A DNA stretch of 25,660 bases from a virus. A program made the translations under genes and the position numbers. The stretch is taken from IMG/VR virus record IMGVR_UViG_3300025873_000040, positions 1-25,660 of that record. The stretch is one strand, 5' to 3'. Of the stretch, positions 1,494 to 17,398 are shown one piece after another. Each line of letters begins with the position of its first letter. Position 1 is the stretch's first letter. The notes under the pieces were generated by a model, which searched no databases, had not been told where the DNA came from, and worked only from the letters and a program-made list of their open reading frames with translations.

Positions 1494-1706
1494 ATGAAGT
1501 ATTATATTACACAAGCAGGAAAAGAGTTTATAGCTGAGACATCTGAGCGTGTTAAAAAGGCAGAGAATGAAGCTAGAGATAAAGTTACCGCAAGAGTTGC
1601 TAAGGCAAGAAAAGCGGGTGAGAATATTAGCCCCACTCAAGCAGGTAAAAGACAAGGACGAGCAATGCATTATGCAGGTAGACAGGCTGTAAAGGAGACT
1701 CCATGA
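1494..1706 (+). CDS. Small basic protein with capsid-targeting-like N-terminus
   Basis: A 70-aa, Lys/Arg/Ala-rich, helical protein. Its first 15 residues, MKYYITQAGKEFIAE followed by T, match the tag shared by other proteins here and end in EFIAE, the same ending as the T4 internal-protein targeting peptide (FIAE before Ala), where the prohead protease gp21 cuts ([LI]-x-E). The remainder is an amphipathic basic helix (VKKAENEARDKVTARVAKAR), as expected for a DNA-binding internal head protein. Its stop overlaps the next start (ATGA). The packaging role is inferred from the motif and composition; no homologue is recognised. Confidence 0.65.
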   Translation: MKYYITQAGKEFIAETSERVKKAENEARDKVTARVAKARKAGENISPTQAGKRQGRAMHYAGRQAVKETP

Positions 1707-1927
1707 ATTTCAAAGAATACTTAAAAGAAGAAGAGAACTTACTATGTGAGGAAGGACTTAAAACAAGGATTAAAGGAGTATATAAAAGAGCTAAAGAAGC
1801 TATTGTGGGAACCCCTGCCTCCGATACTTCTCTTTCTAAAGGAGATAGAGTTCTACATTGGATGAAAAAAGGACTTTCAAAGAGCGCAGCCCAAACAAGA
1901 TCAAAAACAGAACACGGGGATGGTTAA
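1703..1927 (+). CDS. Small basic protein with T4-IP-like N-terminus
   Basis: A 74-aa protein beginning MNFKEYLKEEENLLCEEG. This resembles T4 capsid-targeting peptides of the form M-K-x-[FY]-x-[ED]-[FY]-[IL]-x-E, with possible protease sites after YLKE or LLCE. Downstream it is basic and helical (KTRIKGVYKRAKEAIVG). The start overlaps the previous stop by four bases, implying coupled translation. It is the least similar member of the tag-bearing set and could simply be a structural or chaperone-like protein; an internal head protein is the leading guess. Confidence 0.6.
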   Translation: MNFKEYLKEEENLLCEEGLKTRIKGVYKRAKEAIVGTPASDTSLSKGDRVLHWMKKGLSKSAAQTRSKTEHGDG

Positions 1928-1928
1928 A

Positions 1929-2342
1929 ATGTACTATTTAACTGAAGAAGGTAAGAAGCTTTTAAGTGGGGTAGCAAAGGGTGATCCCCTTAGACGCTTT
2001 ACAGCAAGGGCAGTTAGAAATTTAAGACAGTATAGGCAGAGCCAAGGAACCCACGGTACGCTTGACCCTAGGGAACGAGCTTTTATTAGGCAAAGGGCAA
2101 GAGATCAGGAGCTTGCTACTGGTGCAACACCAAAAAAGCAACAGGAGGCTACAGATAAGCTTCCTGAGTATGACCTTCAAGCTATATTTAGGAATATAGC
2201 TAGTAGAAAAAATCTTTCACCGGAGGAGCAGAGTGACTTAGCAAAAAGAGTTGGGTCTGGAATGGGTGGCAAGATTCAAAGGAGAAGAGAAAAACTCCAA
2301 GCGCAAGGTATGTATAGAGTGGGACAAGCGACTAAGAAGTAA
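1929..2342 (+). CDS. Basic protein with MYYLT-type N-terminus
   Basis: A 137-aa, Arg/Gln-rich protein. I chose ATG 1929 rather than the in-frame ATG at 1920 because a GGGGATGG ribosome site lies 5 nt before it and because the protein then starts MYYLTEEGKKLL, aligning with the MKYLT tag of its neighbours. Unlike them, the tag ends LLSG and lacks the Glu before the presumed cleavage point, so it may be uncut. The body is helical and strongly basic (RRFTARAVRNLRQYRQ). Its stop overlaps the next ATG (TAATG). Function unknown; a packaged DNA-associated protein is inferred. Confidence 0.6.
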   Translation: MYYLTEEGKKLLSGVAKGDPLRRFTARAVRNLRQYRQSQGTHGTLDPRERAFIRQRARDQELATGATPKKQQEATDKLPEYDLQAIFRNIASRKNLSPEEQSDLAKRVGSGMGGKIQRRREKLQAQGMYRVGQATKK

Positions 2343-2569
2343 TGAAAGAAGAATTTAACAGACCCAAGGTTATAGATGCTCTTAGAAGAATGTTTGGGGG
2401 ATCCAAGTCCAAGGAAGAACAGGAAAAAATAGATGCTACGATGGCTCAGACAGATACTAAAAATCCCAAAACTATAAAGAATGATGCTGAAAGAGCAGCG
2501 TTTGATCAGTCTATTAGAGGGGTGAGGCATTCACCAGGAAGACCAAGACTAAGAAGGAGAGGTAGATGA
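2342..2569 (+). CDS. Small basic hypothetical protein, 75 aa
   Basis: A 75-aa protein with an acidic-to-basic gradient ending in the Arg-rich tail GRPRLRRRGR. It lacks the MKYLT tag of its neighbours. It is embedded in the same operon by overlapping stop and start codons on both sides (TAATG at 2340-2344, ATGA at 2566-2569). The Arg-rich tail suggests nucleic-acid contact. No family is recognised. Confidence 0.6.
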   Translation: MKEEFNRPKVIDALRRMFGGSKSKEEQEKIDATMAQTDTKNPKTIKNDAERAAFDQSIRGVRHSPGRPRLRRRGR

Positions 2570-2811
2570 AGTACTTAACTAAAGCAGGAGTCAAATTTAT
2601 AAAAGAGTCTCGCACGGGTAGACAATATCCCAGAAGAGGAAGAAGATATAGAAGAAGTAAAGCAGCATCAACAGAATCAACAGAATCAGAGGAAACTCTA
2701 CCCCCAGGAGTTGTTCGTGCTGAACCAGGATCAGGTGGGATAGGATCTAATCTCCCCCCTGGTGTACTTAATCCTAAACCTAAGCCTAGAGTAAAACTAC
2801 AAAAGAGATGA
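2566..2811 (+). CDS. Small basic protein with MKYLTKAG tag and protease-site motif
   Basis: An 81-aa protein beginning MKYLTKAGVKFIKE then S. The tag ends in I-K-E before Ser, a perfect fit to the T4 prohead protease rule ([LI]-x-E before a small residue). The mature part would be an extremely basic segment (PRRGRRYRRSK) followed by a low-complexity Ser/Thr/Glu and Pro/Gly tail containing LPPGV twice. AAGGAGAGG upstream is a good ribosome site. The first 45 coding bases are nearly identical to those of the next gene, indicating a recent duplication of the tag. Predicted internal head protein (inference). Confidence 0.65.
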   Translation: MKYLTKAGVKFIKESRTGRQYPRRGRRYRRSKAASTESTESEETLPPGVVRAEPGSGGIGSNLPPGVLNPKPKPRVKLQKR

Positions 2812-3602
2812 ACTACCTCACTAAAGCAGGAGTCAAATTAATAAATGAGGGTAGGAGAAGAAGTAGGTCTCAGAAATCTCAAAAAGTTAAGGATAAGTTA
2901 CTTATGCCAGGAGAAACTCCGTTAACTCCTCAAGGGCATGATGATAGAGGTAGAACCCCTAATGTAGAACTTAGAGCAGGTTTAGAGGATATGAAACCTA
3001 GAATAAAGAGAGCTAAGGATAAAAATAAAGATCTTGCGTATGGTAGAGAAGGTGATGTAGCAGGTACAAGAGGGGAAAGACTTGCGAGGGCATACGCACA
3101 AAGACTAGCAAGAGGTGGTAAGAAAGCTAGTAGAAAAATAGTAAGAACAGGGAAGACTAAAGAACCGATTAAAGGTTGGCAAGGAAAGGTTACAGGCTTT
3201 AGTTTAGAACATCCAGATACTGACCCTAAGAATAAAGGTAACAGATTAAGTAGAATATTAACTAAATCTTTAGGGGGAGCAGATCAAGGAGCAGCAGCAA
3301 CACATTCATTCCTTAGAGGGGCAGGAACAAAGACAAAAGCAGACCCAAGTGCAAGAAGAGGATTAAAAAAATTAGGGGTATCACCAGACGAGAACAATCC
3401 ACAAACTTTCTTTAGACATAGTTTTGCTAGAACTGATCCATCACAAACTAGACCAGGACAATTAACTAAAGGACAAGAGATAATAAATAGAGTGAGGAGG
3501 ATGGGTGTAAGGAGAACTGTAAAGAAGAAAAAGAAAGAAGGTTATGAGGTTATAGGAACTATGGGATCAGGTCATATGGGATCAGGTCAATGGACCGATT
3601 AG
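2808..3602 (+). CDS. Large basic protein with MNYLTKAG tag, candidate internal head protein
   Basis: A 264-aa, Lys/Arg/Gly-rich protein starting MNYLTKAGVKLINE then G, which again fits a [LI]-x-E prohead protease site. The body is almost all basic and disordered-looking: RRRSRSQKSQKVK near the start, RTVKKKKKEG near the end, then a Gly/Ser/Met repeat with GSGHMGSGQ. It is the longest and last member of the coupled operon 1494-3602, with its start overlapping the previous stop. The composition suits DNA binding inside the capsid. An enzymatic role is not excluded, but I see no catalytic motif. Confidence 0.65.
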   Translation: MNYLTKAGVKLINEGRRRSRSQKSQKVKDKLLMPGETPLTPQGHDDRGRTPNVELRAGLEDMKPRIKRAKDKNKDLAYGREGDVAGTRGERLARAYAQRLARGGKKASRKIVRTGKTKEPIKGWQGKVTGFSLEHPDTDPKNKGNRLSRILTKSLGGADQGAAATHSFLRGAGTKTKADPSARRGLKKLGVSPDENNPQTFFRHSFARTDPSQTRPGQLTKGQEIINRVRRMGVRRTVKKKKKEGYEVIGTMGSGHMGSGQWTD

Positions 3603-3648
3603 TAAGGGGTAATATAGGTACAAGTATAATACTCCATAGTATACTACT

Positions 3649-3948
3649 AAAAGTCAAATCAATAGTTAACAAGTGAACAGATCATGCAGTCTATTGAGTA
3701 TAGTATACAAGAGTCCATTTATTAAAAGTCAAATCATAGTGTTATATGCAGGGTAATGGATAAGTGTTTTGTTTTTGCTTTACACAAAAGTACATCCAAC
3801 CCCTAATCATAGTAATTCTAAGCTATATATAATAGCATCTAATCATATAATATATAATAATATACCCCCATTGCATACATAAGAGCATTAGAAAAAGTCA
3901 AATCATATATTAATATACTCAGAATACACTTGATAAAAAGTCAAATCA
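3649..3948 (+). repeat. Four direct repeats AAAAGTCAAATCA
   Basis: Identical 13-bp copies lie at 3649-3661, 3724-3736, 3893-3905 and 3936-3948. In the last three, a -10-like hexamer (TATATG, AATATA, TATAAT) begins exactly 6 nt after the repeat; the first copy lacks one. This spacing suggests an activator box of a phage middle promoter, similar in layout to a MotA box. The unequal spacing and AT-richness would also suit iterons at an origin. Confidence 0.75.
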
Positions 3949-3960
3949 TGTTAGTATAAT
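3930..3960 (+). promoter_or_regulatory. Candidate promoter TTGATA-19-TATAAT
   Basis: TTGATA (3930-3935) and a perfect TATAAT (3955-3960) are separated by 19 bp, with the fourth 13-bp repeat filling most of the spacer. Spacing is long for sigma70 alone, so an activator may be needed. It points at the short terminated segment that follows. Confidence 0.45.
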
Positions 3961-3963
3961 GTT

Positions 3964-4024
3964 CCAAAGCTACTCCTTTGGCCCTGTTTATTTCATACTT
4001 TGTGAGATATTCAGGGCTTTTTTC
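3964..4024 (+). ncRNA. Candidate small RNA ending in a rho-independent terminator
   Basis: Just after the promoter come a hairpin CCAAAG-6-CTTTGG (3964-3979) and then GCCCTG (3981-3986) pairing with CAGGGC (4012-4017), followed by a run of T (4018-4023). The whole transcript would be about 60 nt with no room for a protein. Alternatively it is only the terminator of the upstream operon, whose stop is 360 bp away. Confidence 0.4.
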
Positions 4025-4140
4025 TTTAAACCACTACATATAGTGGGTATAAGAAATTTAGATTCACTCAAAAACTAGCTAGGAATACCCATTCTAGACC
4101 CCGTGAATTCATGTTGCCCCTAGACCTATAAGCAATATAA

Positions 4141-4179
4141 GAGAAAACCCCACCCATACCATATGTAGTGGGTGAGGTT
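4141..4179 (-). terminator. Rho-independent terminator of the minus-strand early block
   Basis: On the minus strand an 11-bp near-perfect stem (AACCTCACCCA / TGGGTGGGGTT, 12-nt loop) is followed by TTTCTC. It lies about 20 bp beyond the stop of the last minus-strand gene (4202). Confidence 0.6.
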
Positions 4180-4201
4180 ATTATACTATTCAGTATATAG
4201 T

Positions 4202-4393
4202 TTATTTCTCTTCAGACTTATAATGGCAATCCCATTCAGATTGTTCTTTCTCGATTCTCTTAAGCAATTCACCCAAGAAAAGATATGGGGCATTATAGAG
4301 CCCATGATTCAATCCGATTGCAAACACTTCTGATTTCAAGGACTTGTAAACTTCCAAAGACATTGTAACCGTTATGGGATTCTTCTTTTCCAT
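4202..4393 (-). CDS. Hypothetical protein, 63 aa
   Basis: A 63-aa charged protein starting MEKKNPITVTMSLEVYKSLK, a beta strand then helix pattern that recalls ribbon-helix-helix proteins (short strand ITVTMS, then helices), though this is weak. AGGAA stands 6 nt before the ATG and the gene follows the GP88-like gene by 7 nt, so they share a transcript. The terminator at 4141-4179 ends it. If it is a ribbon-helix-helix protein it could be a small DNA-binding regulator. Confidence 0.55.
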   Translation of the reverse strand: MEKKNPITVTMSLEVYKSLKSEVFAIGLNHGLYNAPYLFLGELLKRIEKEQSEWDCHYKSEEK

Positions 4394-4400
4394 TCAATTC

Positions 4401-5057
4401 CTAATGCGTTGCAAACCTTACGGTTTTAGGGACGCTCCAACATAGACCACAACTAGCACAATCTTTCAATTTGCCTGTTTGTTCTGGACAATCAAAACTC
4501 TTGCCCTCAAATGATTCTTCCGCAGCGAATAGATTAGAAGACTGTACTCCCTCTGAGAAAGATTTATTTCGAGAGAATCTAATTGTGCATCGCTCATTAT
4601 AGCGAGTATTTAGCATCCAAATAGACCAGCCAATCTCACTACCTTCTTCCCTTCCCGTGTATCCGAACAATGAAAGAGTGGGGAAATCAAATAGCATCTT
4701 CTCCCAAAAATTAACATATTCCGTCGTCATGAAATCACCTAGAACATGGAGACGAATAACAATTCCTTGCGCGTGTTTCTTTGTTAGTGTTTCAATCTCA
4801 CTTTCAATCTTGGGAAGCAATCCGATTGTACTAAATCGGTGCGCGAATGGCATATTGTTACCATAACAATCTTCCCAATGATGGCATGATGTTGGGCAAG
4901 TTTCACGCTCAACTAGTGTGAGAGAATATAACTTTTTTCCTTTCCACTTTGGAGTGGTTATCTTGAAACCTAATTTCTTATTATTGGATCCTGGTTTGAG
5001 TACGGTATATAGTGTGGGGTCCTTGATGGACTTCTGAAAGCGTGTAGAGTATTGCAT
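4401..5057 (-). CDS. GP88-like phage protein with Cys clusters
   Basis: A 218-aa protein with cysteines at about 54, 58 and 64 (ETCPTSCHHWEDCYGNN) and a second cluster at 190, 200, 203 and 206 (CASCGLCW). The TCPxxC...CYG segment recalls the GP88 family (PF17338) found in actinophages and other phages; I assign this from memory with moderate confidence. The cysteines suggest a bound metal or Fe-S cluster. The middle, IVIRLHVLGDFMTTEYVNFW, looks like a beta-alpha unit. Its promoter has a -10 box ending 6 nt before the ATG, so the message should be leaderless. The biochemical function of the family is unknown to me. Confidence 0.65.
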   Translation of the reverse strand: MQYSTRFQKSIKDPTLYTVLKPGSNNKKLGFKITTPKWKGKKLYSLTLVERETCPTSCHHWEDCYGNNMPFAHRFSTIGLLPKIESEIETLTKKHAQGIVIRLHVLGDFMTTEYVNFWEKMLFDFPTLSLFGYTGREEGSEIGWSIWMLNTRYNERCTIRFSRNKSFSEGVQSSNLFAAEESFEGKSFDCPEQTGKLKDCASCGLCWSVPKTVRFATH

Positions 5058-5063
5058 AGGTCT

Positions 5064-5092
5064 ATTCTAGCGTCTGGGGTGGTGAGAATCAA
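5064..5092 (-). promoter_or_regulatory. Leaderless sigma70-type promoter TTGATT-17-TAGAAT
   Basis: Read on the minus strand: -35 TTGATT (5092-5087), 17 bp, -10 TAGAAT (5069-5064), then 6 nt (AGACCT) to the ATG at 5057. A start of transcription 7 nt after the -10 box falls on the A of the start codon. Confidence 0.75.
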
Positions 5093-5106
5093 TAAATAAA
5101 TAGTGG

Positions 5107-5180
5107 ATCGTCCTAAGTCCTTGTCAATACCGTACTTAGGTCATTCGGGCGGGGCCCGCCCCGCCAAATGGGGAATCCTA
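5107..5180 (-). repeat. Intergenic cassette copy 1
   Basis: It contains the conserved core CTTGTCAATACCGTACTTAG (plus strand), flanked by complementary arms CCTAAG and CTTAGG, then a GC palindrome (GGCGGGG-CCCG-CCCCGCC) and the box AAATGGGGAATCCTA. The cassette lies between the stop of the upstream micro-gene and the promoter of the GP88-like gene. See the other five copies at 6063, 7211, 8206, 8921 and 9963. Confidence 0.8.
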
Positions 5181-5246
5181 AACTAGAAAAGTGATAGCAC
5201 CTAGGATTGCAAAGAAGATAACAGATCGCCAATCATCCCTGCTCAT
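5178..5246 (-). CDS. Membrane micro-protein, 22 aa
   Basis: A 22-codon frame starts MSRDDWRSV and continues into one hydrophobic helix (IFFAILGAITFLV) to a TAG at the cassette edge. GGAG lies 7 nt before the ATG, and the frame overlaps the last codons of the upstream gene in another frame. Size, topology and placement before a cassette parallel the micro-gene at 8279-8347. Function unknown; possibly an inner-membrane regulator or superinfection factor. Confidence 0.5.
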   Translation of the reverse strand: MSRDDWRSVIFFAILGAITFLV

Positions 5247-5448
5247 TGTTTTTCTCCCATGCTTCACGCATCAATCGGTTACCCTCTTCGGTCCATCGGA
5301 TAGTTAGATCTTCCTCCTCGTCATTCCATCCAAGGTCACACCATCCCATTTCAGAAGCTCGGAGATAGCACAGAGCCTCGTCTAAACTGTCGGCTAGGCT
5401 TTCGTTGAAATTGTTACCAGTCCAAGTTATTCGATTGCGTAGGCTCAT
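5233..5448 (-). CDS. Hypothetical acidic protein, 71 aa
   Basis: A 71-aa Trp- and Glu-rich protein (MSLRNRITWTGNNFNESLADS...). A longer frame extends to 5499, but I chose ATG 5448 because GGAGG lies 8 nt upstream and the extension would run inside the sigma gene. It starts 2 nt after the sigma factor stop, so it is translationally linked to that gene. Repeated acidic stretches such as DLGWNDEEEDLT suggest a protein-binding or DNA-mimic-like surface; this is speculation. No family recognised. Confidence 0.6.
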   Translation of the reverse strand: MSLRNRITWTGNNFNESLADSLDEALCYLRASEMGWCDLGWNDEEEDLTIRWTEEGNRLMREAWEKNNEQG

Positions 5449-5450
5449 TG

Positions 5451-5993
5451 TTATGCCTCCATAGTGGCAAGGGTTCGGTTGATAAGTTGACGCACCCACT
5501 CGTTAGAGCGTCCAATGTTCTTTCCAATCTCTTCCAGGGTGAGGTCATCCACAAAACGCAACTCGAAAATGTGCTGCATAGCAGGGGACAGGTCAGCGAT
5601 CATATCAGAGAATGAATCGGTGTCGTTCTCGGTGTATGATGGGTGCCAGCGGTCGCTGTTTGATCCTCCACGCCCACCTGTTTCATTCTCGCAATTATTG
5701 TTTAGGTCGTCAATCGAGAAGTGGACCGTTTCACGCTTTGCGCGGGGCATACTAGAACGCAGGGAAGTATTTAGTCCCCAACGGATACGCTGGATGATAT
5801 AAGTGGAGAGGGTCATACCAGCTTCGGGGTCGTACTCCTCAAGAGCCTTGAGAATATAGATGCGCCCGATCTGTGCGAGGTCTTCAAGTTCATAGTCCAT
5901 ACGGATCGAGCGGTAGCGCATCCATTGGTGTGCGTACTTGTAGACTGCCAGATCAAATTGGGCGAGTGCTTGTGCTTGTGTCATTGTTTCCAT
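5451..5993 (-). CDS. Phage RNA polymerase sigma factor (sigma70 family, gp55-like size)
   Basis: A 180-aa protein with the two core sigma modules. Region 2 spans about residues 35-75 (LEDLAQIGRIYILKALEEYDP then STYIIQRIRWGL), binding core polymerase and the -10 element. Region 4 spans about 135-176 with the helix-turn-helix LTLEEIGKNIGRSNEWVRQL. The linker (about 100-125) is Asn/Gly-rich. Its length is close to T4 gp55, the late sigma factor, and T4-late-like boxes precede virion genes here, so a late-transcription role is likely. It could alternatively serve the TAGAAT promoters of this block. The start METMT lies 6 nt after a -10 box; a second ATG three codons later is possible. Confidence 0.85.
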   Translation of the reverse strand: METMTQAQALAQFDLAVYKYAHQWMRYRSIRMDYELEDLAQIGRIYILKALEEYDPEAGMTLSTYIIQRIRWGLNTSLRSSMPRAKRETVHFSIDDLNNNCENETGGRGGSNSDRWHPSYTENDTDSFSDMIADLSPAMQHIFELRFVDDLTLEEIGKNIGRSNEWVRQLINRTLATMEA

Positions 5994-5996
5994 ACC

Positions 5997-6028
5997 CCTA
6001 TTCTATCAGAATAGGCCCCTTATCTCTA
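5997..6028 (-). promoter_or_regulatory. Sigma-gene promoter overlapped by a perfect inverted repeat
   Basis: On the minus strand: weak -35 TAGAGA (6028-6023), 17 bp, extended -10 TGATAGAAT (-10 at 6005-6000), then AGGGGT and the ATG at 5993. CCTATTCT (5997-6004) and AGAATAGG (6008-6015) form a perfect 8-bp inverted repeat with a 3-nt centre directly over the -10 box, a natural operator position. Confidence 0.65.
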
Positions 6029-6062
6029 CAGTTTGGGCTAACTATCGACCGAAAATGAATTT

Positions 6063-6120
6063 ACCTAAACCCTTGTCAATACCGTACTTAGGTCAATCGG
6101 GCGGGGCCCGCAAATGCGAC
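6063..6120 (-). repeat. Intergenic cassette copy 2 (short hairpin)
   Basis: The core CCTTGTCAATACCGTACTTA is identical to copies 1 and 3, with arms ACCTAA and TTAGGT that pair. The GC palindrome is truncated (GGGCGGGGCCCG without the second arm). It lies 35-45 bp upstream of the sigma-gene promoter. Confidence 0.8.
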
Positions 6121-6425
6121 ATTGTAGAAAAGAACAAAGGGGACAACTCCCCCGTCCAAAAACCAGACTCCGCGCCTAGGTCACATCAACACCCGATTTT
6201 TATCATGTATGAGCTTGGTGAGTGTCCACCTTCACAAGAGAGTTATTCCGTCCAGTTAGGATTACTAAGCCTTTCCTTCTGGCATCTTGAATGCTTCCCC
6301 TCCACGGTGAGGATGATTGAAAAAAAACCGTGGAGGACGCTCAGAGCCTGTTAGCCTATTTATACTCGCTCTGTCGAGTGTGGGGAGAGGGGGGATATCA
6401 ACCTAAAACCCTCCCCCCCAAACCG
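6121..6425 (-). other. Structured non-coding stretch downstream of the 70-aa gene
   Basis: No convincing gene is seen on either strand. On the minus strand it contains a G-run/C-run hairpin (about 6384-6420), a T4-late-like TATAAATAGG (about 6355-6364), a perfect 9-bp hairpin CCTCCACGG/CCGTGGAGG (arms near 6300-6335, with eight T in the loop) and a terminator-like GGGGGAGTTGTCCCC followed by TTTGTTCTTTT (about 6127-6153). It may be a long 3' UTR or a small-RNA locus. Confidence 0.4.
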
Positions 6426-6638
6426 TCAGACGCTAAAGCTCATCGGGTTTTTGCTTGCCGTTCCTGCGTTGTTCCAAACTTCCACGCAATGCTTACGCTT
6501 GCCAGAGGCTACGATATTGCCAGAGCGTCCAGCGATAAAGTAGTGGTTGGAGGTTCCGTTGCCGCTCAGACGATACATCGTCCAGTTGGAATTGGAGTAG
6601 CCAGAGACGGGGGAGATAAAGTTATTCAGATTCAGCAT
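6426..6638 (-). CDS. Hypothetical protein, 70 aa
   Basis: A 70-aa Asn/Ser-rich protein (MLNLNNFISPVSGYSNSNW...). I chose ATG 6638 rather than the frame's upstream ATG at 6713 because AAAGGA lies 9 nt before it and the longer form would overlap the neighbour by about 90 nt. The remaining overlap with the upstream gene is 17 nt. Several Asn-Gly and Ser-Gly turns with alternating strands (TMYRLSG, HYFIAGR, NIVASGKRK) suggest a small beta fold. No family recognised. Confidence 0.55.
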   Translation of the reverse strand: MLNLNNFISPVSGYSNSNWTMYRLSGNGTSNHYFIAGRSGNIVASGKRKHCVEVWNNAGTASKNPMSFSV

Positions 6639-7119
6639 GGGAGCTATCCTTTTGAGTTGAAGTAGAAAGAGACTTGCGTTGGTTGTGCGCTTGACCGTAC
6701 TTGATCGTTGCATCTTCCAACACGGGAGAGGTAGGTATACTAGCCAGGGTTTCTAGAATATCAACGGAAATATCTTTTCCGCTGAGGAGATCCTGAGACA
6801 TGGTAGCAAGAGCAGAGGAGAGATAATCTTTCCGCTCTTGCGCTTGAGCGAGGATCAGTTCTGCAAGATCCTCTGCTGCGGTGATTTCTTCAAGCCACGC
6901 TTCGTGCTTTGCAGCGCGTGACTCAAAAGATTGGGGACCAGCACCCAAGCCACGCTGGGACTCGGTGATAGCTGCGGAGTTTTCCTTGATGGCATCCACG
7001 ATGGGAGCCAGTTCGGGCGATTGTTTAGCTTGATCGAGAGCAGCCTTCTCACGCAGTTTGGTGAGACGGGCTTCTGATTCCTCGATCAGTTCTTGGGCAC
7101 TTCTTCGGGTGCGACTCAT
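6622..7119 (-). CDS. Coiled-coil hypothetical protein, 165 aa
   Basis: A 165-aa, Glu/Ala-rich, helical protein (MSRTRRSAQELIEESEARLTK...). Heptad-like spacing over about residues 8-32 and 70-105 suggests coiled coil. The C-terminus is Ser/Thr/Gln/His-rich. A full AAGGAGGT ribosome site lies at 7131-7124, and the promoter TTGATA-17-TAGTAT sits 35 nt further up. Unlike most genes in this block the message therefore has a normal leader, suggesting strong translation. Function unknown; a structural or DNA-organising role is possible. Confidence 0.65.
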   Translation of the reverse strand: MSRTRRSAQELIEESEARLTKLREKAALDQAKQSPELAPIVDAIKENSAAITESQRGLGAGPQSFESRAAKHEAWLEEITAAEDLAELILAQAQERKDYLSSALATMSQDLLSGKDISVDILETLASIPTSPVLEDATIKYGQAHNQRKSLSTSTQKDSSHAESE

Positions 7120-7160
7120 GATGACCTCCTTGGTCAGTAAATGTAACGAATTATAACCCT

Positions 7161-7189
7161 ATACTAGCGTTTGGGTTGGGCCATATCAA
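7161..7189 (-). promoter_or_regulatory. Promoter TTGATA-17-TAGTAT with leader
   Basis: Minus strand: TTGATA (7189-7184), 17 bp, TAGTAT (7166-7161). The ATG is at 7119, leaving a leader of about 35 nt that carries AAGGAGGT. It is one of only two promoters in this block not placed for a leaderless start. Confidence 0.7.
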
Positions 7190-7210
7190 CAGTCGGGAAG
7201 TGTAAATCGT

Positions 7211-7286
7211 GAATCGTCGTAAACCCTTGTCAATACCGTACTTAGGTCAATCGGGCGGGGCCCGCCCCGCCAAATGGGTATTCCTA
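7211..7286 (-). repeat. Intergenic cassette copy 3 (full form)
   Basis: It has a GAATCGTCGTAAACC lead, the core CTTGTCAATACCGTACTTAG, the full GC palindrome (7 bp stem, loop CCCG) and the box AAATGGGTATTCCTA. It lies between the DUF932 terminator and the promoter of the coiled-coil gene. Confidence 0.85.
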
Positions 7287-7299
7287 GAAAGTGAAGATA

Positions 7300-7330
7300 G
7301 AAAAAAGGGGAGGACCTGAGCCCTCCCCTG
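7300..7330 (-). terminator. Rho-independent terminator after DUF932 gene
   Basis: On the minus strand AGGGGAGG (7329-7322), an 8-nt loop and CCTCCCCT (7313-7306) are followed by TTTTTC. The stem is perfect and sits just past the DUF932 stop codon. Confidence 0.85.
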
Positions 7331-7335
7331 AAAAC

Positions 7336-8124
7336 CTACGAGCAGAGCAGAGCAGTTTCCGCAAGATTCCAAAGACCAGTATTCACACGGTCCAAAGCGT
7401 CGATGTTGCGAAGCTCACGCGAAGTGCGCTTGTTCAACTTGAATCCACCACGGACACAGTTCTCTTGGAGAACATTGTAGGTAGTCCAAATGTCTCGACC
7501 ATGATCCTCACCCCGTCGAGGTGCCAGTAGGAGCATGGGGTCCATGTGAGTTTCACCAAAGCGAAGCTCACGCGCACCAACAGCCATATCGGTGCGCTGA
7601 TTGTCGTTGAGATCAACCTGCACCATATCCGACACAGTACCGAAGAAGTTACCAAACGAGTCCGAAATACGATTTACGGCATCGTAAGCATAGACGGGAT
7701 TCCATCCAATGTGCTTGCGGGAAACCTCTTCGCCCACCTTCTCAAATCCAGGAACGCGAATGGTGAGACCATTAGAACAAACCATGGAGAACGCACCAGC
7801 GGAGAGCTTCCACCGACAAGTACCATTGCTGGAGTTGTAAAGAAGAATCTCAGGGAACACATCACGGTTGCCCCTAGGATCACGGAATGTGAGTTCGTCC
7901 GACTTGGGACGGAATCGGATCATGTGCTTATTGTGCATGGGGTCCGATTTGCGAGAGTGGGGGGATTGAGCGTCAGCGACACCCCAGCCCAGATCCTGGA
8001 ATGTATCCATGATCTTTTCAGAAGAGACGAAAGTGTAACGATCAGAGCGTTTGCCATCGTGTCCAGTTGCGAACACAGAAGGTGCGCGTTCTTGGATCTG
8101 ATCGGGAGTGAGAAATGAAACCAT
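7336..8124 (-). CDS. DUF932 phage/plasmid-like protein
   Basis: A 262-aa protein with the hallmarks of DUF932 (PF06067): an N-terminal segment RYTFVSSEKIMDTFQDLGWG, a conserved HMIRFR strand, the core GTCRWKLSAGAFSMVCSNGL, and the C-terminal segment NVLQENCVRGGF that is typical of the family. Such proteins are common in phages and plasmids; their biochemical function is not established, though they are often made early and abundantly. AAGGAC precedes the ATG by 8 nt within a leader of about 30 nt, and a strong terminator follows, making this a single-gene transcript. GC content appears higher than in the structural genes. Confidence 0.88.
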   Translation of the reverse strand: MVSFLTPDQIQERAPSVFATGHDGKRSDRYTFVSSEKIMDTFQDLGWGVADAQSPHSRKSDPMHNKHMIRFRPKSDELTFRDPRGNRDVFPEILLYNSSNGTCRWKLSAGAFSMVCSNGLTIRVPGFEKVGEEVSRKHIGWNPVYAYDAVNRISDSFGNFFGTVSDMVQVDLNDNQRTDMAVGARELRFGETHMDPMLLLAPRRGEDHGRDIWTTYNVLQENCVRGGFKLNKRTSRELRNIDALDRVNTGLWNLAETALLCS

Positions 8125-8156
8125 TGTAATGTCCTTATTGGTTAGAAGTTACCCCT

Positions 8157-8184
8157 ATTCTAGCATGGGGGGCATAGGAATCAA
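8157..8184 (-). promoter_or_regulatory. DUF932 promoter TTGATT-16-TAGAAT
   Basis: Minus strand: TTGATT (8184-8179), 16 bp ending ATGC, and -10 TAGAAT (8162-8157), giving an extended TGC-TAGAAT. The leader to ATG 8124 is about 30 nt and carries AAGGAC. Confidence 0.7.
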
Positions 8185-8205
8185 GTGGAAAGGTAGGAAA
8201 GTTTT

Positions 8206-8282
8206 GAATCGTCGTAAACCCTTGTCAATACCGCACTTAGGTCATTTGGGCGGGGCCCTCGCCCCGCTTTGCAACTTCCTAG
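8206..8282 (-). repeat. Intergenic cassette copy 4
   Basis: GAATCGTCGTAAACC lead, core CTTGTCAATACCGCACTTAG (T to C against copies 1-3), and a changed palindrome GCGGGG-CCCTCG-CCCCGC in which pairing is kept although the loop differs. It ends in ACTTCCTAG, touching the stop of the micro-gene. Confidence 0.8.
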
Positions 8283-8347
8283 TCTGCCATCAAGTTGCAG
8301 AGTGCCCAGATCGTACCCCATAGAATAAGTAAGATTGCGAGGGCCAT
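8279..8347 (-). CDS. Membrane micro-protein, 22 aa
   Basis: A 22-codon frame beginning MALAILLILWGTIWALC, almost entirely one hydrophobic helix, ending in MAD and TAG. It starts 2 nt after the stop of the zinc-ribbon-like gene, with GGAA about 11 nt upstream, and stops at the edge of cassette copy 4. The arrangement matches that of the 22-aa micro-gene at 5178-5246. Function unknown. Confidence 0.5.
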   Translation of the reverse strand: MALAILLILWGTIWALCNLMAD

Positions 8348-8349
8348 TC

Positions 8350-8592
8350 TTACATTTCCGAGTAGGTGCCAGAGTAAGGGTTGGGATCATCATCGTATTG
8401 GGATGCCCAATCCTCAAGCTCCGCTTCCTGAATACACTTGGAATCGGTGTATTCTTGATCGAAATCCCGTGCTATCTGCTCGGAGCATTCGTCACAGGTG
8501 AGATCGTTGCCGTATCGGTTGCTGACCATGTACTGAGGAAATTCCTCACCACACGCATCGCAAGGAATGAATTGTTGAGTTTCGTAGTTCAT
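8350..8592 (-). CDS. Small zinc-ribbon-like protein, 80 aa
   Basis: An 80-aa acidic protein with two CxxC knuckles, CDAC (11-14) and CDEC (33-36), spaced as in a zinc ribbon. The rest is acidic (EAELEDWASQYDDDP). It is predicted to bind one zinc ion and contact nucleic acid or a host protein. The promoter has a near-consensus TTGACA-17-TGC-TAGAAT and the ATG begins 6 nt after the -10 box, so the mRNA should lack a leader. It is followed at once by a membrane micro-gene. Confidence 0.7.
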   Translation of the reverse strand: MNYETQQFIPCDACGEEFPQYMVSNRYGNDLTCDECSEQIARDFDQEYTDSKCIQEAELEDWASQYDDDPNPYSGTYSEM

Positions 8593-8598
8593 GAGTTT

Positions 8599-8627
8599 AT
8601 TCTAGCACCAGTCCGTGGAATTGTCAA
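8599..8627 (-). promoter_or_regulatory. Leaderless promoter TTGACA-17-TAGAAT; stop codon of upstream gene lies in the -10 box
   Basis: Minus strand: consensus -35 TTGACA (8627-8622), 17 bp ending GTGC, -10 TAGAAT (8604-8599), AAACTC, then ATG 8592. The TAG stop of the upstream gene is the first half of the -10 hexamer, so the gene ends inside the promoter of the next one. Confidence 0.8.
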
Positions 8628-8862
8628 GGTCTTTGCTGTCTTCTTCGATGGTGTCCCAGATACCATCCTGGCACACTTGACACATTCCAGAGATCTGGTA
8701 CTCTTTCACGGAGAGGTCATCGGTGAATGAGGAAATTTCAATACCCTCAGTGTGGCAGAGGACACAAAGACCCTCAGCGATAGCGTACTCGCGTGTGATG
8801 AATTTAGGAATGAGAGAATTGATGAGTGCCATCAGTTCGGGTGATTTGTCTGTTGCTTTCAT
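8602..8862 (-). CDS. Small zinc-binding-like protein, 86 aa
   Basis: An 86-aa protein with an N-terminal helical part (PELMALINSLIPKFITREYA) and two CxxC pairs, CVLC (33-36) and CQVC (61-64), consistent with one structural zinc. The C-terminus is acidic. The ATG follows a TGA-TAGAAT extended -10 box by 6 nt. No named family is recognised; such small zinc proteins are frequent in early phage regions and often target host machinery. Confidence 0.7.
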   Translation of the reverse strand: MKATDKSPELMALINSLIPKFITREYAIAEGLCVLCHTEGIEISSFTDDLSVKEYQISGMCQVCQDGIWDTIEEDSKDLDNSTDWC

Positions 8863-8868
8863 ACCCCT

Positions 8869-8897
8869 ATTCTATCAAGTGGTGTGCTATGTATCAA
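8869..8897 (-). promoter_or_regulatory. Leaderless promoter TTGATA-17-TAGAAT
   Basis: Minus strand: TTGATA (8897-8892), 17 bp ending CTTGA (extended TGA), -10 TAGAAT (8874-8869), AGGGGT, ATG 8862. Confidence 0.78.
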
Positions 8898-8920
8898 GTG
8901 CAATGGTAGAAAAGTTTAGT

Positions 8921-8991
8921 GGATCGTCGTAAACCCTTGTCAATACCGCACTTAGGTCGTTTGGGCGGGGCCCTCGAAATGGGTCTTCCTA
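8921..8991 (-). repeat. Intergenic cassette copy 5 (short hairpin)
   Basis: GGATCGTCGTAAACC lead, core CTTGTCAATACCGCACTTAG, truncated palindrome GGGCGGGGCCC, and the box AAATGGGTCTTCCTA. It begins 5 nt after the CCA end of the tmRNA-like RNA and lies 30-40 bp upstream of the next promoter. Confidence 0.8.
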
Positions 8992-8995
8992 TGAT

Positions 8996-9077
8996 TGGTG
9001 GAGGTGGAGGGAATCGAACCCTCGTCCTAACTAGTTCCCATATGGGTCTTAGCTAGTCGAACAACCTTTACACCCCC
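8996..9077 (-). ncRNA. tmRNA-like tRNA-like domain, 82 nt, without a tag-coding part
   Basis: Read on the minus strand, the RNA begins GGGGGUGUAAAGG, followed by UUGUUCGAC, closely like the 5' end of tmRNA (GGGGCUG...GGUUUCGAC). It ends GGACGAGGGUUCGAUUCCC and then UCCACCUCCACCA, like the tmRNA 3' end. All 7 acceptor pairs form (GGGGGUG with CACCUCC, one G-U), the T stem is GAGGG/CCCUC with loop UUCGAUU, and CCA is encoded. Between the two ends there is only a helix (ACUAG/CUAGU) capped by CCCAUAUGGG, in the place of tmRNA helix P2. No D stem or tRNA anticodon arm can be folded. A normal tmRNA is over 300 nt with a tag frame, absent here. An aberrant tRNA or a remnant are alternatives. Confidence 0.6.
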
Positions 9078-9084
9078 GAAGGTG

Positions 9085-9130
9085 GGGGAGAGGCTACGCT
9101 AAACTTAAGGTTTGCGCTTCGCCTCTCCCC
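9085..9130 (-). other. Strong stem-loop preceding the tmRNA-like RNA
   Basis: A perfect 10-bp stem, GGGGAGAGGC (9130-9121) with GCCTCTCCCC (9094-9085), encloses a nested stem in which CGC and AAAC pair with GTTT and GCG. It is not followed by a T run. It could be a processing or stop signal for the upstream gene, or a detached structural part of the tmRNA-like molecule. Confidence 0.5.
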
Positions 9131-9181
9131 TAATAAACAAACAACTCGTAGGTGATCAACCTAACTGCGTCTGCTTATGTA

Positions 9182-9508
9182 CTAATAAGTTAGTTCAAGT
9201 GATTTCGCCTCGTTCTCGTTGATCTTCCCAAGAATGTGCCAAACCGTATCCCAGCTTCTATGCCCAATCACATCATCGTATTCGGTTAGACGCAAGTAAT
9301 CACCAGAAGGTGTGAAGACTGCAACCTCATAAGAGGTTGCCTGTCCAGTCTCGTTCATTTCACCATAAGAGCCCTCGCCCCATAGCAAACTTACCATGTA
9401 GCCATTGTCAAAGATGTATCTGGTAGCGTGGTCTTTGGTCCAGATGGTAGCTTCCCAATAGGTACTGCGTCCTACCTCATAGTATCCTGCTGTTGATATC
9501 TTGCTCAT
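9182..9508 (-). CDS. Hypothetical protein, 108 aa
   Basis: A 108-aa protein with many aromatic residues (MSKISTAGYYEVGRSTYWEA...). Alternating strands such as HATRYIFDNGYMVSLLW and TSYEVAVFTPSGDYLRL suggest a compact beta-rich fold. The ATG overlaps the stop of a 36-aa micro-gene (ATGA) and also lies exactly 6 nt after its own -10 box, so it can be expressed both by coupling and from a leaderless transcript. Its stop is about 100 nt upstream of the tmRNA-like RNA. Family not recognised. Confidence 0.65.
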   Translation of the reverse strand: MSKISTAGYYEVGRSTYWEATIWTKDHATRYIFDNGYMVSLLWGEGSYGEMNETGQATSYEVAVFTPSGDYLRLTEYDDVIGHRSWDTVWHILGKINENEAKSLELTY

Positions 9509-9615
9509 GGTGCTATACTAGCGTGTGAGATCCAGCTTACAAGTGAAAAGAAAAGAAATGCAGCTATGGCATAGCACACTACACCCCTAGCCACTACCTT
9601 ATTGAAATCAGCCAT
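9505..9615 (-). CDS. Membrane micro-protein, 36 aa
   Basis: A 36-codon frame starting MADFNKVVARG, then one hydrophobic helix (VVCYAIAAFLFFSLVSWI). The start overlaps the end of the upstream gene and the TGA stop overlaps the ATG of the downstream gene, an arrangement expected for coupled translation and unlikely by chance. The downstream gene's promoter lies inside this frame. Positive residues precede the helix, favouring a cytoplasmic N-terminus. Function unknown. Confidence 0.6.
   Translation of the reverse strand: MADFNKVVARGVVCYAIAAFLFFSLVSWISHASIAP
9515..9542 (-). promoter_or_regulatory. Leaderless promoter TTGTAA-16-TAGTAT
   Basis: Minus strand: -35-like TTGTAA (9542-9537), 16 bp, -10 TAGTAT (9520-9515), AGCACC, ATG 9508. 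The -35 is weaker than in its neighbours, but the 6-nt gap to the ATG is kept. Confidence 0.6.
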
Positions 9616-9886
9616 TGCTAGTAGGCCCACCATGCATCCACTCGTAAGCCTCAGCAGCCCCGTAACGCTTCCCGTCCTCATCTAGTGGTAGCTCACGCCT
9701 CAGACCACGGAATGCCTCTAGGAGTACGCTCATGTCCTCTGAGGCATCCTCGTTGTATGCTTCATTGAATAGCTCTGCCACCTCAAGTGATAGGTTGTGA
9801 ATGTGCGAGGGTGCTTGATCGTCCCACCCATTGTATGAGTCGAGATGGTCAAGCATATACTGTGTCTGTTCTAGGGTGTATGTCAT
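9608..9886 (-). CDS. Hypothetical acidic protein, 92 aa
   Basis: A 92-aa, helical, strongly acidic protein (MTYTLEQTQYMLDHLDSYNGW...). Helices with EVAELFNEAYNEDASEDM and LEAFRGLRRELPLDEDG dominate. It is the first gene of the minus-strand early block. It has its own promoter with the -10 box 6 nt before the ATG and cassette copy 6 further up. The stop overlaps the following micro-gene. No family recognised; the acidity might suit a host-protein inhibitor. Confidence 0.6.
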   Translation of the reverse strand: MTYTLEQTQYMLDHLDSYNGWDDQAPSHIHNLSLEVAELFNEAYNEDASEDMSVLLEAFRGLRRELPLDEDGKRYGAAEAYEWMHGGPTSNG

Positions 9887-9892
9887 GCCACT

Positions 9893-9921
9893 ATTCTAGC
9901 ATGGTGTGGTGTGTATCTCAA
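9893..9921 (-). promoter_or_regulatory. Leaderless promoter TTGAGA-17-TAGAAT
   Basis: Minus strand: TTGAGA (9921-9916), 17 bp ending CATGC (extended TGC), -10 TAGAAT (9898-9893), AGTGGC, ATG 9886. Confidence 0.78.
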
Positions 9922-9962
9922 CACTACCCAGAGCATTATAATGCAATTTCCTATGCCATGTG

Positions 9963-10052
9963 CGTAAGTGCTTGTCAATGCTATACTTACAAAGACTTAC
10001 AAAGGTCCAACGGAAAAAGGCGCGGCAAGGGTCCTACATTTGGGTCTTCCTA
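9963..10052 (-). repeat. Intergenic cassette copy 6 (diverged)
   Basis: It is recognisable by CTTGTCAATGCTATACTTAC, with arms GTAAGT and ACTTAC that still pair although their sequence differs from other copies, and by the terminal box TTGGGTCTTCCTA. The GC palindrome is replaced by a less GC-rich sequence around CGCGGCAAGGGTCC. It marks the upstream end of the early block. Confidence 0.65.
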
Positions 10053-10120
10053 GCGCATATAGGGACTCTCATTAGTATAGGACCCTTAAAAAAAATTATA
10101 AAAAAAAATTCTCACCAACT

Positions 10121-10128
10121 CTAAATAA
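10121..10128 (+). promoter_or_regulatory. Candidate late promoter box CTAAATAA
   Basis: CTAAATAA stands 3 nt before the ATG at 10132, preceded by a very A-rich stretch (10088-10109). It has the same layout as the box before the tag-bearing gene at 1494. Confidence 0.45.
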
Positions 10129-10131
10129 GGT

Positions 10132-10335
10132 ATGAAGTATCTTACAGAAGCTGGGAGAGAGTTCTTAAACGAGGTTGAAGAAAGGGTTAGACGACCTTTA
10201 ACACGCCCTGGAACTACTAGACCTTCAAGAAGATCTTTTGCTAGACAAGTTAAGGCTGCACAAAGAGTTCAGAGATCTAAAGAAAGACAAGGTGAGAGAG
10301 TACCAGAGACCCCCAGAGTTATTTCCCTTCCTTAA
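10132..10335 (+). CDS. Small basic protein with MKYLTEAG tag, isolated copy
   Basis: A 67-aa, Arg-rich protein starting MKYLTEAGREFLNE followed by V, the same tag as in the 1494-3602 operon, ending in L-N-E at the presumed prohead protease site. The rest is basic and Pro/Ser-rich (RRPLTRPGTTRPSRRSF), ending in VISLP. It is single, with its own late-type box and its own terminator, 6.5 kb from the other members and beyond the minus-strand block. An internal head protein role is inferred. Confidence 0.65.
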   Translation: MKYLTEAGREFLNEVEERVRRPLTRPGTTRPSRRSFARQVKAAQRVQRSKERQGERVPETPRVISLP

Positions 10336-13917: not shown

Positions 13918-14283
13918 ATGGCAAACTCACCTATGGTAGATGGAAAAGGTTATATTGATGTAAACTCTGCTTTAAGGCTTAAAGAAGCTGAAGGTAGGGT
14001 TGAGGTAGAAAAACTACAAGCTGAAGCTGATTCTAGATTTAGAGAATTGTTAATAAAAGAAAGTGCCAAAGAAACTGCTTCTAAGCACCTCGCTAAGTTT
14101 GCAGGTTTATACTTATTAATTCTCGTACTAGCGTTCATTGGTAGTATTAAATTCATTCCCTCAGAAAGCATAGCGGTGGTTGCGGGCTTAATAACTCTGG
14201 TAGTGACGAGCCTATCCACGATTTTAAAGGGGATAGTGGAAAATGGAACAGTGCAGGATGATTTAAAGGGAGATAAGAAATGA
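13918..14283 (+). CDS. Two-TM membrane protein, holin candidate
   Basis: A 121-aa protein. Residues 15-60 form a charged coiled coil (LRLKEAEGRVEVEKLQAEAD), residues 61-79 (GLYLLILVLAFIGSI) and 84-106 (IAVVAGLITLVVTSL) are transmembrane helices joined by a very short loop, and the tail is charged (DDLKGDKK). This topology fits class II holins, but the long N-terminal coiled coil is unusual, and no endolysin gene is seen nearby. It overlaps the next, also membrane-bound, product (ATGA). It could instead be a membrane anchor or tail-assembly factor. Confidence 0.65.
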   Translation: MANSPMVDGKGYIDVNSALRLKEAEGRVEVEKLQAEADSRFRELLIKESAKETASKHLAKFAGLYLLILVLAFIGSIKFIPSESIAVVAGLITLVVTSLSTILKGIVENGTVQDDLKGDKK

Positions 14284-14456
14284 ATCCAATATGGGGACTA
14301 TTTTTCAAGGACAGGTTTAGAACACCTTTCTCAGTTTACAGAATGAGTTTAGCAGAGGTTGTAGTTTTGCTTGGACTAGTTGCTGGTGCTGGAATTGGAA
14401 TTGCGAAAGGGGTTAGCTGGGTTATGGATTTAGAAGGTGTGGAAGCCACGGAATAA
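14280..14456 (+). CDS. Single-TM small protein, 58 aa
   Basis: A 58-aa frame that overlaps the previous stop (ATGA) and has GGGAGA 6 nt upstream. It begins MNPIWGLFFKDRFRTP, then one helix (about residues 23-43, LAEVVVLLGLVAGAGIGIAKG), then the acidic tail DLEGVEATE. The positive-inside rule puts the N-terminus inside. Pairing with the two-TM protein suggests a shared membrane function such as lysis control. No family recognised. Confidence 0.6.
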   Translation: MNPIWGLFFKDRFRTPFSVYRMSLAEVVVLLGLVAGAGIGIAKGVSWVMDLEGVEATE

Positions 14457-14459
14457 AGT

Positions 14460-14591
14460 ATGCCTTACGGACCTGGAACATACGGCTCTAAGAAGGGAAG
14501 ACCCGCTAAAAAGATTAAAAGACAAAGGAAGTCTACTAAAAAATCTCTTAGAGAAACTGTCTATAATCGTTTAAAGAGGATATTAAAGTAA
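14460..14591 (+). CDS. Small basic protein, 43 aa (GPGTYGSKKGRP type)
   Basis: A 43-aa, Lys/Arg-rich protein starting MPYGPGTYGSKKGRPAKK. This N-terminus, M-P-x-G-x-G-T-Y-G-x-K-x-G-R-P, is a recurring form among small phage proteins of unknown function as I recall it. The TAA stop overlaps the next ATG (TAATG), so the two are coupled. A nucleic-acid-binding or packaged role is inferred from its charge. Confidence 0.55.
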   Translation: MPYGPGTYGSKKGRPAKKIKRQRKSTKKSLRETVYNRLKRILK

Positions 14592-16714: not shown

Positions 16715-17398
16715 TTATACTTCTATAGGTAAGGAATGTTGTTCTATAAAGGCTTGCTTATTTTTATGCCAAGAGTCTCTACCTGCTAATTCCCCAAAAG
16801 AATGATGAATCATAAAGATAGGCTCTACCGTATTATAGAACCCTTTTTTGTGTGCTTGTATTGTATAGTGAATATCATAGAAATCCCACTCCCCTTCGAA
16901 GTACTCAGGCTTAGTTAAATTAATTGATTTAAGGGTCTTTCCTTTCACAGCTAAGAACAAACCATCTAGACATACTACCCTACCTGGATTTCCATAGTAA
17001 GTATATTGAGCATCTCTTATATCCTTCCCATGCAACACCATTCCCCTATGCTTCCCTTGTTGCCACATTTGATGATTCCACCATACAGCATCCTCAGATA
17101 AGTAGGTAGTTCCTGCGGGACCAAAGAACCCACACTTCTCTTTTCTAGAAGCGGATACTAGGACATTTACAAATTGTTGTGGGTCCATTATAATTTCAAT
17201 ATCATCATGGCAGAATATAACGATATCATTATCTCTTAGTATAATATTTTTTAATCCTTCAGAATAAGCCTCAAAGATACTTTTTTTATCTATTAAGAGT
17301 TTTACATCTATTTTGCACCTAGATAAATAGGAGAGCAATTTATGTGTATAATCAGGTAAAGACTCTTTACGAGTGCAAATAAAAGCGTATATCTTCAT
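16715..17398 (-). CDS. Glycosyltransferase, GT2-like (PF13712 type)
   Basis: A 227-aa protein with a GT-A style layout: N-terminal beta strand MKIYAFICTR, the donor-binding acidic motif FCHDDIEI (about 62-69), DGLFLAVKGK (145-154), EWDFYDIHYTIQAHKKG (170-186) and IHHSFGE (197-203). These match the small GT2-like family (Glyco_tranf_2_5) I recall from bacteria and phages. It would move a sugar from a nucleotide donor to a phage or host surface acceptor, or to DNA. I chose ATG 17398 because the domain begins there; the frame runs to 17458. No ribosome site is visible. The start codon shares CATG with the terL start on the other strand. Confidence 0.75.
   Translation of the reverse strand: MKIYAFICTRKESLPDYTHKLLSYLSRCKIDVKLLIDKKSIFEAYSEGLKNIILRDNDIVIFCHDDIEIIMDPQQFVNVLVSASRKEKCGFFGPAGTTYLSEDAVWWNHQMWQQGKHRGMVLHGKDIRDAQYTYYGNPGRVVCLDGLFLAVKGKTLKSINLTKPEYFEGEWDFYDIHYTIQAHKKGFYNTVEPIFMIHHSFGELAGRDSWHKNKQAFIEQHSLPIEV

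Follow-up and report, generated by a model that had tools for sequence, protein, structure and literature searches.

Why would a phage place one short peptide at the start of several otherwise dissimilar basic proteins? The question is raised by a 25,660-base IMG/VR virus fragment, IMGVR_UViG_3300025873_000040 (hereafter the window, meaning this whole stretch of DNA), in which five open reading frames (ORFs) carry the N-terminal pattern M-(K)-Y-[ILV]-T-x-x-G-x-x-[FLI]-[LI]-x-E, the one starting at position 1929 without the Glu. We consider it likely that this tag is a T4-type capsid-targeting propeptide that brings exchangeable basic cargo into the prohead before being cut off. The 14-15-residue tag would bind the prohead core at head assembly, carrying the attached basic protein inside. 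A gp21-type S77 protease would cut after the Glu of [LI]xE, and the mature cargo (from window precursors of 67-264 amino acids (aa)) would be freed among the packaged DNA and delivered with the genome. Core binding, cleavage, packaging, delivery and the individual cargo roles are steps that we infer from the observations below.

A shared N-terminal tag

An earlier note on the window had described this N-terminus at starts 1494, 1929, 2566, 2808 and 10132, with the endings IAE/T, IKE/S, INE/G and LNE/V in four of them, and a sixth protein, at 1703, starting MNFKEYLKEE. The ORF translations confirm these readings, and the five tagged starts were also recovered out of sample. A profile built from 12 tags of other contigs only, with no window tags, placed the same five ORFs at the top of 727 window starts, scoring 34.8 (1494), 32.4 (10132), 22.4 (2566), 16.8 (2808) and 7.6 (1929); the sixth best start scored 2.0, and the highest score among 26,030 starts, from 80 other marine phage contigs, was 9.5.

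The 12 further tagged proteins lie on close marine kin contigs and bring the total to 17 (Table 1), with the consensus M-K-Y-(Y)-[ILV]-T-Q-x-G-x-x-[FIL]-[LI]-x-E. All 16 non-orthologous tags examined have the Tyr, Thr and Gly, 15 have the Glu, and the P3 residue is L, I or V. A profile of all 17 tags scores its members at 27.7-48.7 and every other start at 20.6 or less; on reversed DNA it gave one match above 10. Tag identity is 0.63, 0.76 and 0.49 at codon positions 1, 2 and 3, and only 0.37 in the 30 nucleotides (nt) upstream. Because the third codon position is the least conserved, the sequences indicate that selection acts on the tag peptide. Sequence likeness among the tagged proteins is limited to these 14-15 residues: mean DNA identity falls from 0.64 in the tag to 0.29 over the 33 nt that follow, and the corresponding values for the 2566 and 2808 genes are 88% and 36%.

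Searched over all viral contigs, the pattern MKYY[VIL]TQxG was found in the kin contigs and in G013 only, and MKYLTxAG in 32 stretches. Outside kin contig L024, the latter look like chance matches, without an [FL][IL]xE end. G013 was considered as a same-contig link between tag and S77 protease and dropped, its match being the start of an unrelated, non-basic 352-aa protein.

Two of the window N-termini depart from the pattern. The 1703 protein is T4-like in shape, stands outside the MKYLT family and belongs among the basic families, described below, that have an [LI]xE site at the N-terminus; its start codon region overlaps the stop of the 1494 gene. The 1929 tag reads LLSG where the others end in [LI]xE, and the ORF has an alternative start at 1920. 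No relatives of the 1929 protein were found among viral contigs, and a search for relatives of the 2808 protein likewise returned none. A single-sequence AlphaFold model of the 2808 protein has a mean predicted local distance difference test score of 53 and a predicted template modelling score of 0.18, with a helix predicted at low confidence at residues 6-31.

Exchange of bodies behind the tag

At two fixed slots, the tag can be followed across relatives that differ in what lies behind it. Slot 1 is bordered by two conserved proteins (Table 1), the left of which is 83-89% identical in kin contigs carrying or abutting the slot. A tagged gene, starting in an ATGA overlap, lies exactly between the border genes in L012, L143, L148, L149 and L169. 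In the window, L009, L021 and L151, the slot is unoccupied and the border genes overlap directly (at ATGA in the window). L149 and L012 have 97% DNA identity through the left border gene and the greater part of the tag (403 nt), their bodies are without DNA homology, and 89% identity resumes at the right border start codon. The same break pattern occurs between L143 and L148, between L149 and L169 and between L012 and L169. At slot 2, the window gene at 10132 and the L015 gene at 293 have 78% DNA identity over window positions 9830-10173, comprising the upstream gene and the leader; homology stops at the Glu codon and is followed by unrelated bodies, in proteins of 67 and 190 aa, respectively.

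These alignments indicate that the tag is independent of its body, which can be replaced, lost or gained behind it. Because whole bodies are exchanged, the tag is probably a general address label by which proteins are loaded into the virus head. The proposal of the earlier note, a sorting tag on diverse basic cargo, is supported by this swapping at fixed slots, where homology breaks off at the Glu codon or close to it. Further support comes from sister contigs, described below, with gp21-type protease and gp23 genes and capsid propeptides ending in [LIVM]xE, and from the C-terminal tag-like site and basic segment of sister proteases.

In L148 (1446-2162), a tagged ORF without a stop continues in frame into the right border gene, a natural cargo-border fusion.

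Properties of the bodies

By BLASTP, the 17 tagged proteins fall into 16 body families, with one true orthologue pair. Family representatives have isoelectric points of 9.7-12.0, and the median charge per residue of tagged families is +0.131 versus +0.031 in other families (p=1e-5). The bodies are strongly basic and, that pair apart, mutually unrelated, as had been claimed from the window alone. Pfam and PADLOC returned no match at E<=0.01 for 25 tagged or site-bearing proteins, and a PHROG scan of the same 25 gave no usable function.

The cargos most probably act in host takeover, against restriction or in DNA condensation. By analogy with T4, in which the internal protein IPI is anti-restriction and IPIII takes part in assembly, anti-defence, host-takeover and DNA-condensing roles are each possible, and we favor a mixture of them. 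Variation of cargo among close kin at one slot would fit an arms-race role.

Sister lineages with a head protease

Among the matches listed, the window portal protein is at most ~34% identical to those of INPHARED phages. In IMG/VR, ~26 short contigs match it at 74-94% identity and many more at 53-64%. Because the portal is far from INPHARED phages and close to IMG/VR contigs, the sequence places the window in an uncultured T4-like phage clade, which is marine and without a close cultured relative.

In 540 protein families of this clade, with ORF starts assigned mechanically, [LI]xE/[AGSTVE] with its Glu at residue 9-24 occurs in 42 of 176 basic families, compared with 10.4 +/- 3.1 with shuffled N-termini; the values for non-basic families are 26 of 290 and 15.4 +/- 3.5. 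Several tag dialects recur on different basic bodies within one lineage: a MNNFEEYLIDVLLE-type dialect in L152 and L153, MNSYDRIYNLLTE-type and MNWQDKIYESLVE-type dialects in G002, G005 and G017, and MYDRFLHILLE / MYDRILELIAE in L038 and L047.

Genes for Peptidase_S77 and Gp23 are present on three sister contigs: G002, with 63% portal identity to the window, and G017 and G019, whose slot-border protein is 73-77% identical. All three have LLPE/G in the scaffold and, next to the protease, a conserved basic protein with an [LI]xE site at its N-terminus. Aligned with T4 gp23, the capsid N-terminal extension ends in RLNE/D, KMNE/A or RLDE/E, and [LIVM]xE stands just before the conserved core, around where the propeptide of T4 gp23 ends, in 32 of 32 non-redundant capsid-protein N-termini from capsid-gene contigs. 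No MKYxT tag was found in 80 capsid-gene contigs, so the protease of the tagged clade itself was not located.

Tag-like sites inside longer proteins

Tag-like sites are also found internally. Among 20 S77 proteases of sister phages with tails of >100 aa, 12 have such sites, 16 in total (shuffled mean 0.03, maximum 1), including HYHRMGLLIAE/GMG and NYKQIGLIIAE/AMG in L231 and NTYAALKGLLLE/D in L208/G017. Charge per residue is -0.04 to +0.08 before these sites and mostly +0.08 to +0.20 after them, and several of the contigs concerned have a separate ORF of the same dialect beyond the capsid gene. Isolate phages, among the matches listed, align to the G017 protease domain only and not to its tail.

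Gp21-type proteases with C-terminal extensions of up to 500 aa that hold such sites were seen in L208, L231, L248, L251, L255 and others; judged by their sequences, these may be protease-cargo polyproteins. The window has a candidate cargo polyprotein of its own in the basic protein at 14591, which contains NSIYDRTFILLE/K, with its Glu 60 at codon 14768-14770, and STIYKRMGVLLE/A, with its Glu 428 at codon 15872-15874; both sites are internal and of another dialect. Residues 473-576, after the second site, are conserved in L004 and L021. In L143, a 70-aa domain lies ahead of a tag that stands at the N-terminus of the related L009 protein. Because sites occur internally in the 14591 protein, in L143 and in protease tails, these arrangements support tags as removable boundaries, at which the fusions would be cleaved.

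A ~45-aa N-terminal module, SKVxRCVxHVMxDGKSKVxAIKICQxSTG, precedes the first internal site in the window 14591 protein, L151 3290 and L148 2166.

Alternative explanations

The tag might be an assembly handle only, on core or scaffold accessories that, like gp67 and gp68, are consumed and not delivered. T4 core proteins also have [LI]xE sites cut by gp21 (PMC9026906), as would suit such a role, and the basic protein next to the protease in G002, G017 and G019 likewise has an [LI]xE site, at its N-terminus. Core scaffold proteins would not, however, be expected to have non-homologous bodies that are swapped or missing at fixed slots, and we consider this explanation unlikely. Two others fare worse. 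That the tag begins a conserved folded domain, such as a winged-helix remnant with a binding role elsewhere, is suggested by Y-x-L-T-x-x-G-x-x-x-L, which we take to resemble PadR/MarR-type proteins. However, similarity ends at residue 14-15, no preceding helix-turn-helix and no Pfam or PADLOC family match was found, and sister lineages have the same [LI]xE ending on other sequences, so we regard a folded domain as very improbable. A nucleic-acid feature, namely a translation-coupling or recombination sequence in place of a peptide signal, could account for tagged genes often starting within overlaps with upstream genes and for non-homologous genes having tag DNA in common. It is hardly credible given the weak conservation of codon position 3 and of the 30 nt upstream, together with the invariant Tyr, Thr and Gly and nearly invariant Glu.

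Several points nevertheless weigh against the propeptide proposal. S77 protease and gp23 are absent from the window and from every contig with an MKYxT tag, all of which are fragments, and the link between tag and protease runs through sister contigs only. The P1' residue is often L, V, F or I instead of A/G/S, and the 1929 protein has no Glu. Mechanical ORF starts underlie the [LI]xE enrichment, the capsid cleavage column was placed by alignment, and the packaging and cutting of tagged proteins are deduced from sequence.

Comparison with known systems

T4 gp21 cuts at L/I-X-E, and capsid-targeting sequences (CTSs) of 10-19 residues, a range that includes the 14-15 residues of the tag, target T4 internal proteins (PMC9026906); the T-even internal proteins are a diverse set in which only the CTS is conserved (PMC3012670). 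As with IPI, IPII and IPIII of T4, a short N-terminal peptide with an [LI]xE end is common to unrelated small basic proteins whose bodies turn over fast, and an S77 protease, gp23 and a gp22-type scaffold are present, here in sister contigs. In contrast to T4, whose peptide is MKTYQEFIAE, the tag reads M-K-Y-(Y)-[ILV]-T-Q-x-G-x-E-F-L-x-E and agrees with that sequence at the [FL][IL]xE end only, too little to count as similar. Five tagged genes occur in one 25-kb fragment, swap slots lie near the terminase gene, and there are internal sites and, in sister lineages, apparent protease-cargo fusions. With tblastn, a tagged 30-aa N-terminus matched 0 of 50,697 phage records and a T4-type peptide matched 499. 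The suggestion that the tag is distinct from that of T4 and may be undescribed therefore holds for its sequence, whereas the idea is not new in principle (PMC3012670).

In SPN3US and phiKZ, propeptides are likewise cut after Glu by the prohead protease, and SPN3US gp53 and gp54 are diverged paralogues with identical N-terminal 15 residues (PMC5694885). Unlike here, the SPN3US cut is at A-x-E, most propeptides exceed 100 residues, and gp53 and gp54 are homologous. In P1 DarB, whose cargo is anti-restriction, an N-terminal peptide (>9, <=30 residues) suffices to target a reporter to the capsid (PMC9024508); the tags of the window clade differ in having a clear common consensus. New here are the clade-specific tag, the breakpoints at the predicted cut site and the apparent protease-cargo fusions. 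No description of MKYxT tags or of prohead protease-cargo fusions was found in the literature searched by title and abstract.

Our analyses indicate the T4 strategy, one sorting peptide on many unrelated packaged proteins, well beyond the T-even phages. With the tag as a sequence rule, packaged cargo can be sought in genomes that show no recognisable homology, and the slots offer a list of candidate host-takeover or anti-defence proteins that vary among close relatives. If the protease-cargo fusions are real, they would represent a new means of loading a phage head. Distinct dialects could act as addressable protein-packaging signals. We suggest only tentatively that the large marine T4-like clade runs modular cargo loading, with lineage-specific dialects matched to their own prohead core, protease-fused or polyprotein cargo (as in the window 14591 protein) set free by that same protease, and recombination at the tag end.

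Gene context and other elements

Table 1 Tagged, bordering and context genes of the window, and tagged proteins of kin contigs
Feature	Position	Strand	Basis
Tagged basic protein, 70 aa; tag MKYYITQAGKEFIAE/T = 1494-1538	1494..1706	+	ORF; profile
Basic protein, 74 aa; N-terminus MNFKEYLKE/E, T4-shaped	1703..1927	+	ORF
Basic protein, 137 aa; degenerate tag MYYLTEEGKKLLSG without Glu	1929..2342	+	ORF; profile
Small basic ORF, untagged, within the same overlapping gene run	2342..2569	+	ORF
Tagged basic protein, 81 aa; tag MKYLTKAGVKFIKE/S = 2566-2607	2566..2811	+	Profile
Tagged basic protein, 264 aa; tag MNYLTKAGVKLINE/G = 2808-2849	2808..3602	+	Profile
Tagged basic protein, 67 aa, swap slot 2; tag MKYLTEAGREFLNE/V = 10132-10173	10132..10335	+	Profile, DNA alignment
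Conserved 121-aa protein, left border of slot 1	13918..14283	+	Kin alignment
Conserved 58-aa protein, right border of slot 1	14280..14456	+	Kin comparison
Basic protein, 576 aa; two internal sites of another dialect	14591..16321	+	Motif scan
Terminase large subunit (context)	17373..18953	+	phrog_2, E=2.8e-42
gp20-type portal protein (context)	18938..20704	+	phrog_213, E=1e-78
Kin tagged proteins: L006/L169 (2), L007 (1), L012 (1), L015/L143 (3)
Kin tagged proteins: L018/L020/L149 (2), L024/L151 (2), L083/L148 (1)

The window also holds several RNA-like and repeated elements. An Rfam match to transfer-messenger RNA (tmRNA) at 8996-9077 on the minus strand scores 66 bits over only 82 nt. It has a complete tRNA-like domain with a tmRNA-type D-arm and CCA, and no messenger part between the halves; ARAGORN reported nothing for this element. 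Just upstream on the same strand lie G+C-rich hairpins and what may be a short reading frame. A Pistol self-cleaving ribozyme match (54 bits) lies between phage genes at 6292-6379 on the minus strand. Finally, a ~84-nt intergenic element, CCTTGTCAATACCGTACTTAGGTCA..GGGCGGGGCCC, occurs in five copies (5097, 6049, 7203, 8198 and 8913) between minus-strand genes, each with CCCTATTCTAGC-type repeats; these copies are possibly promoter/terminator units.

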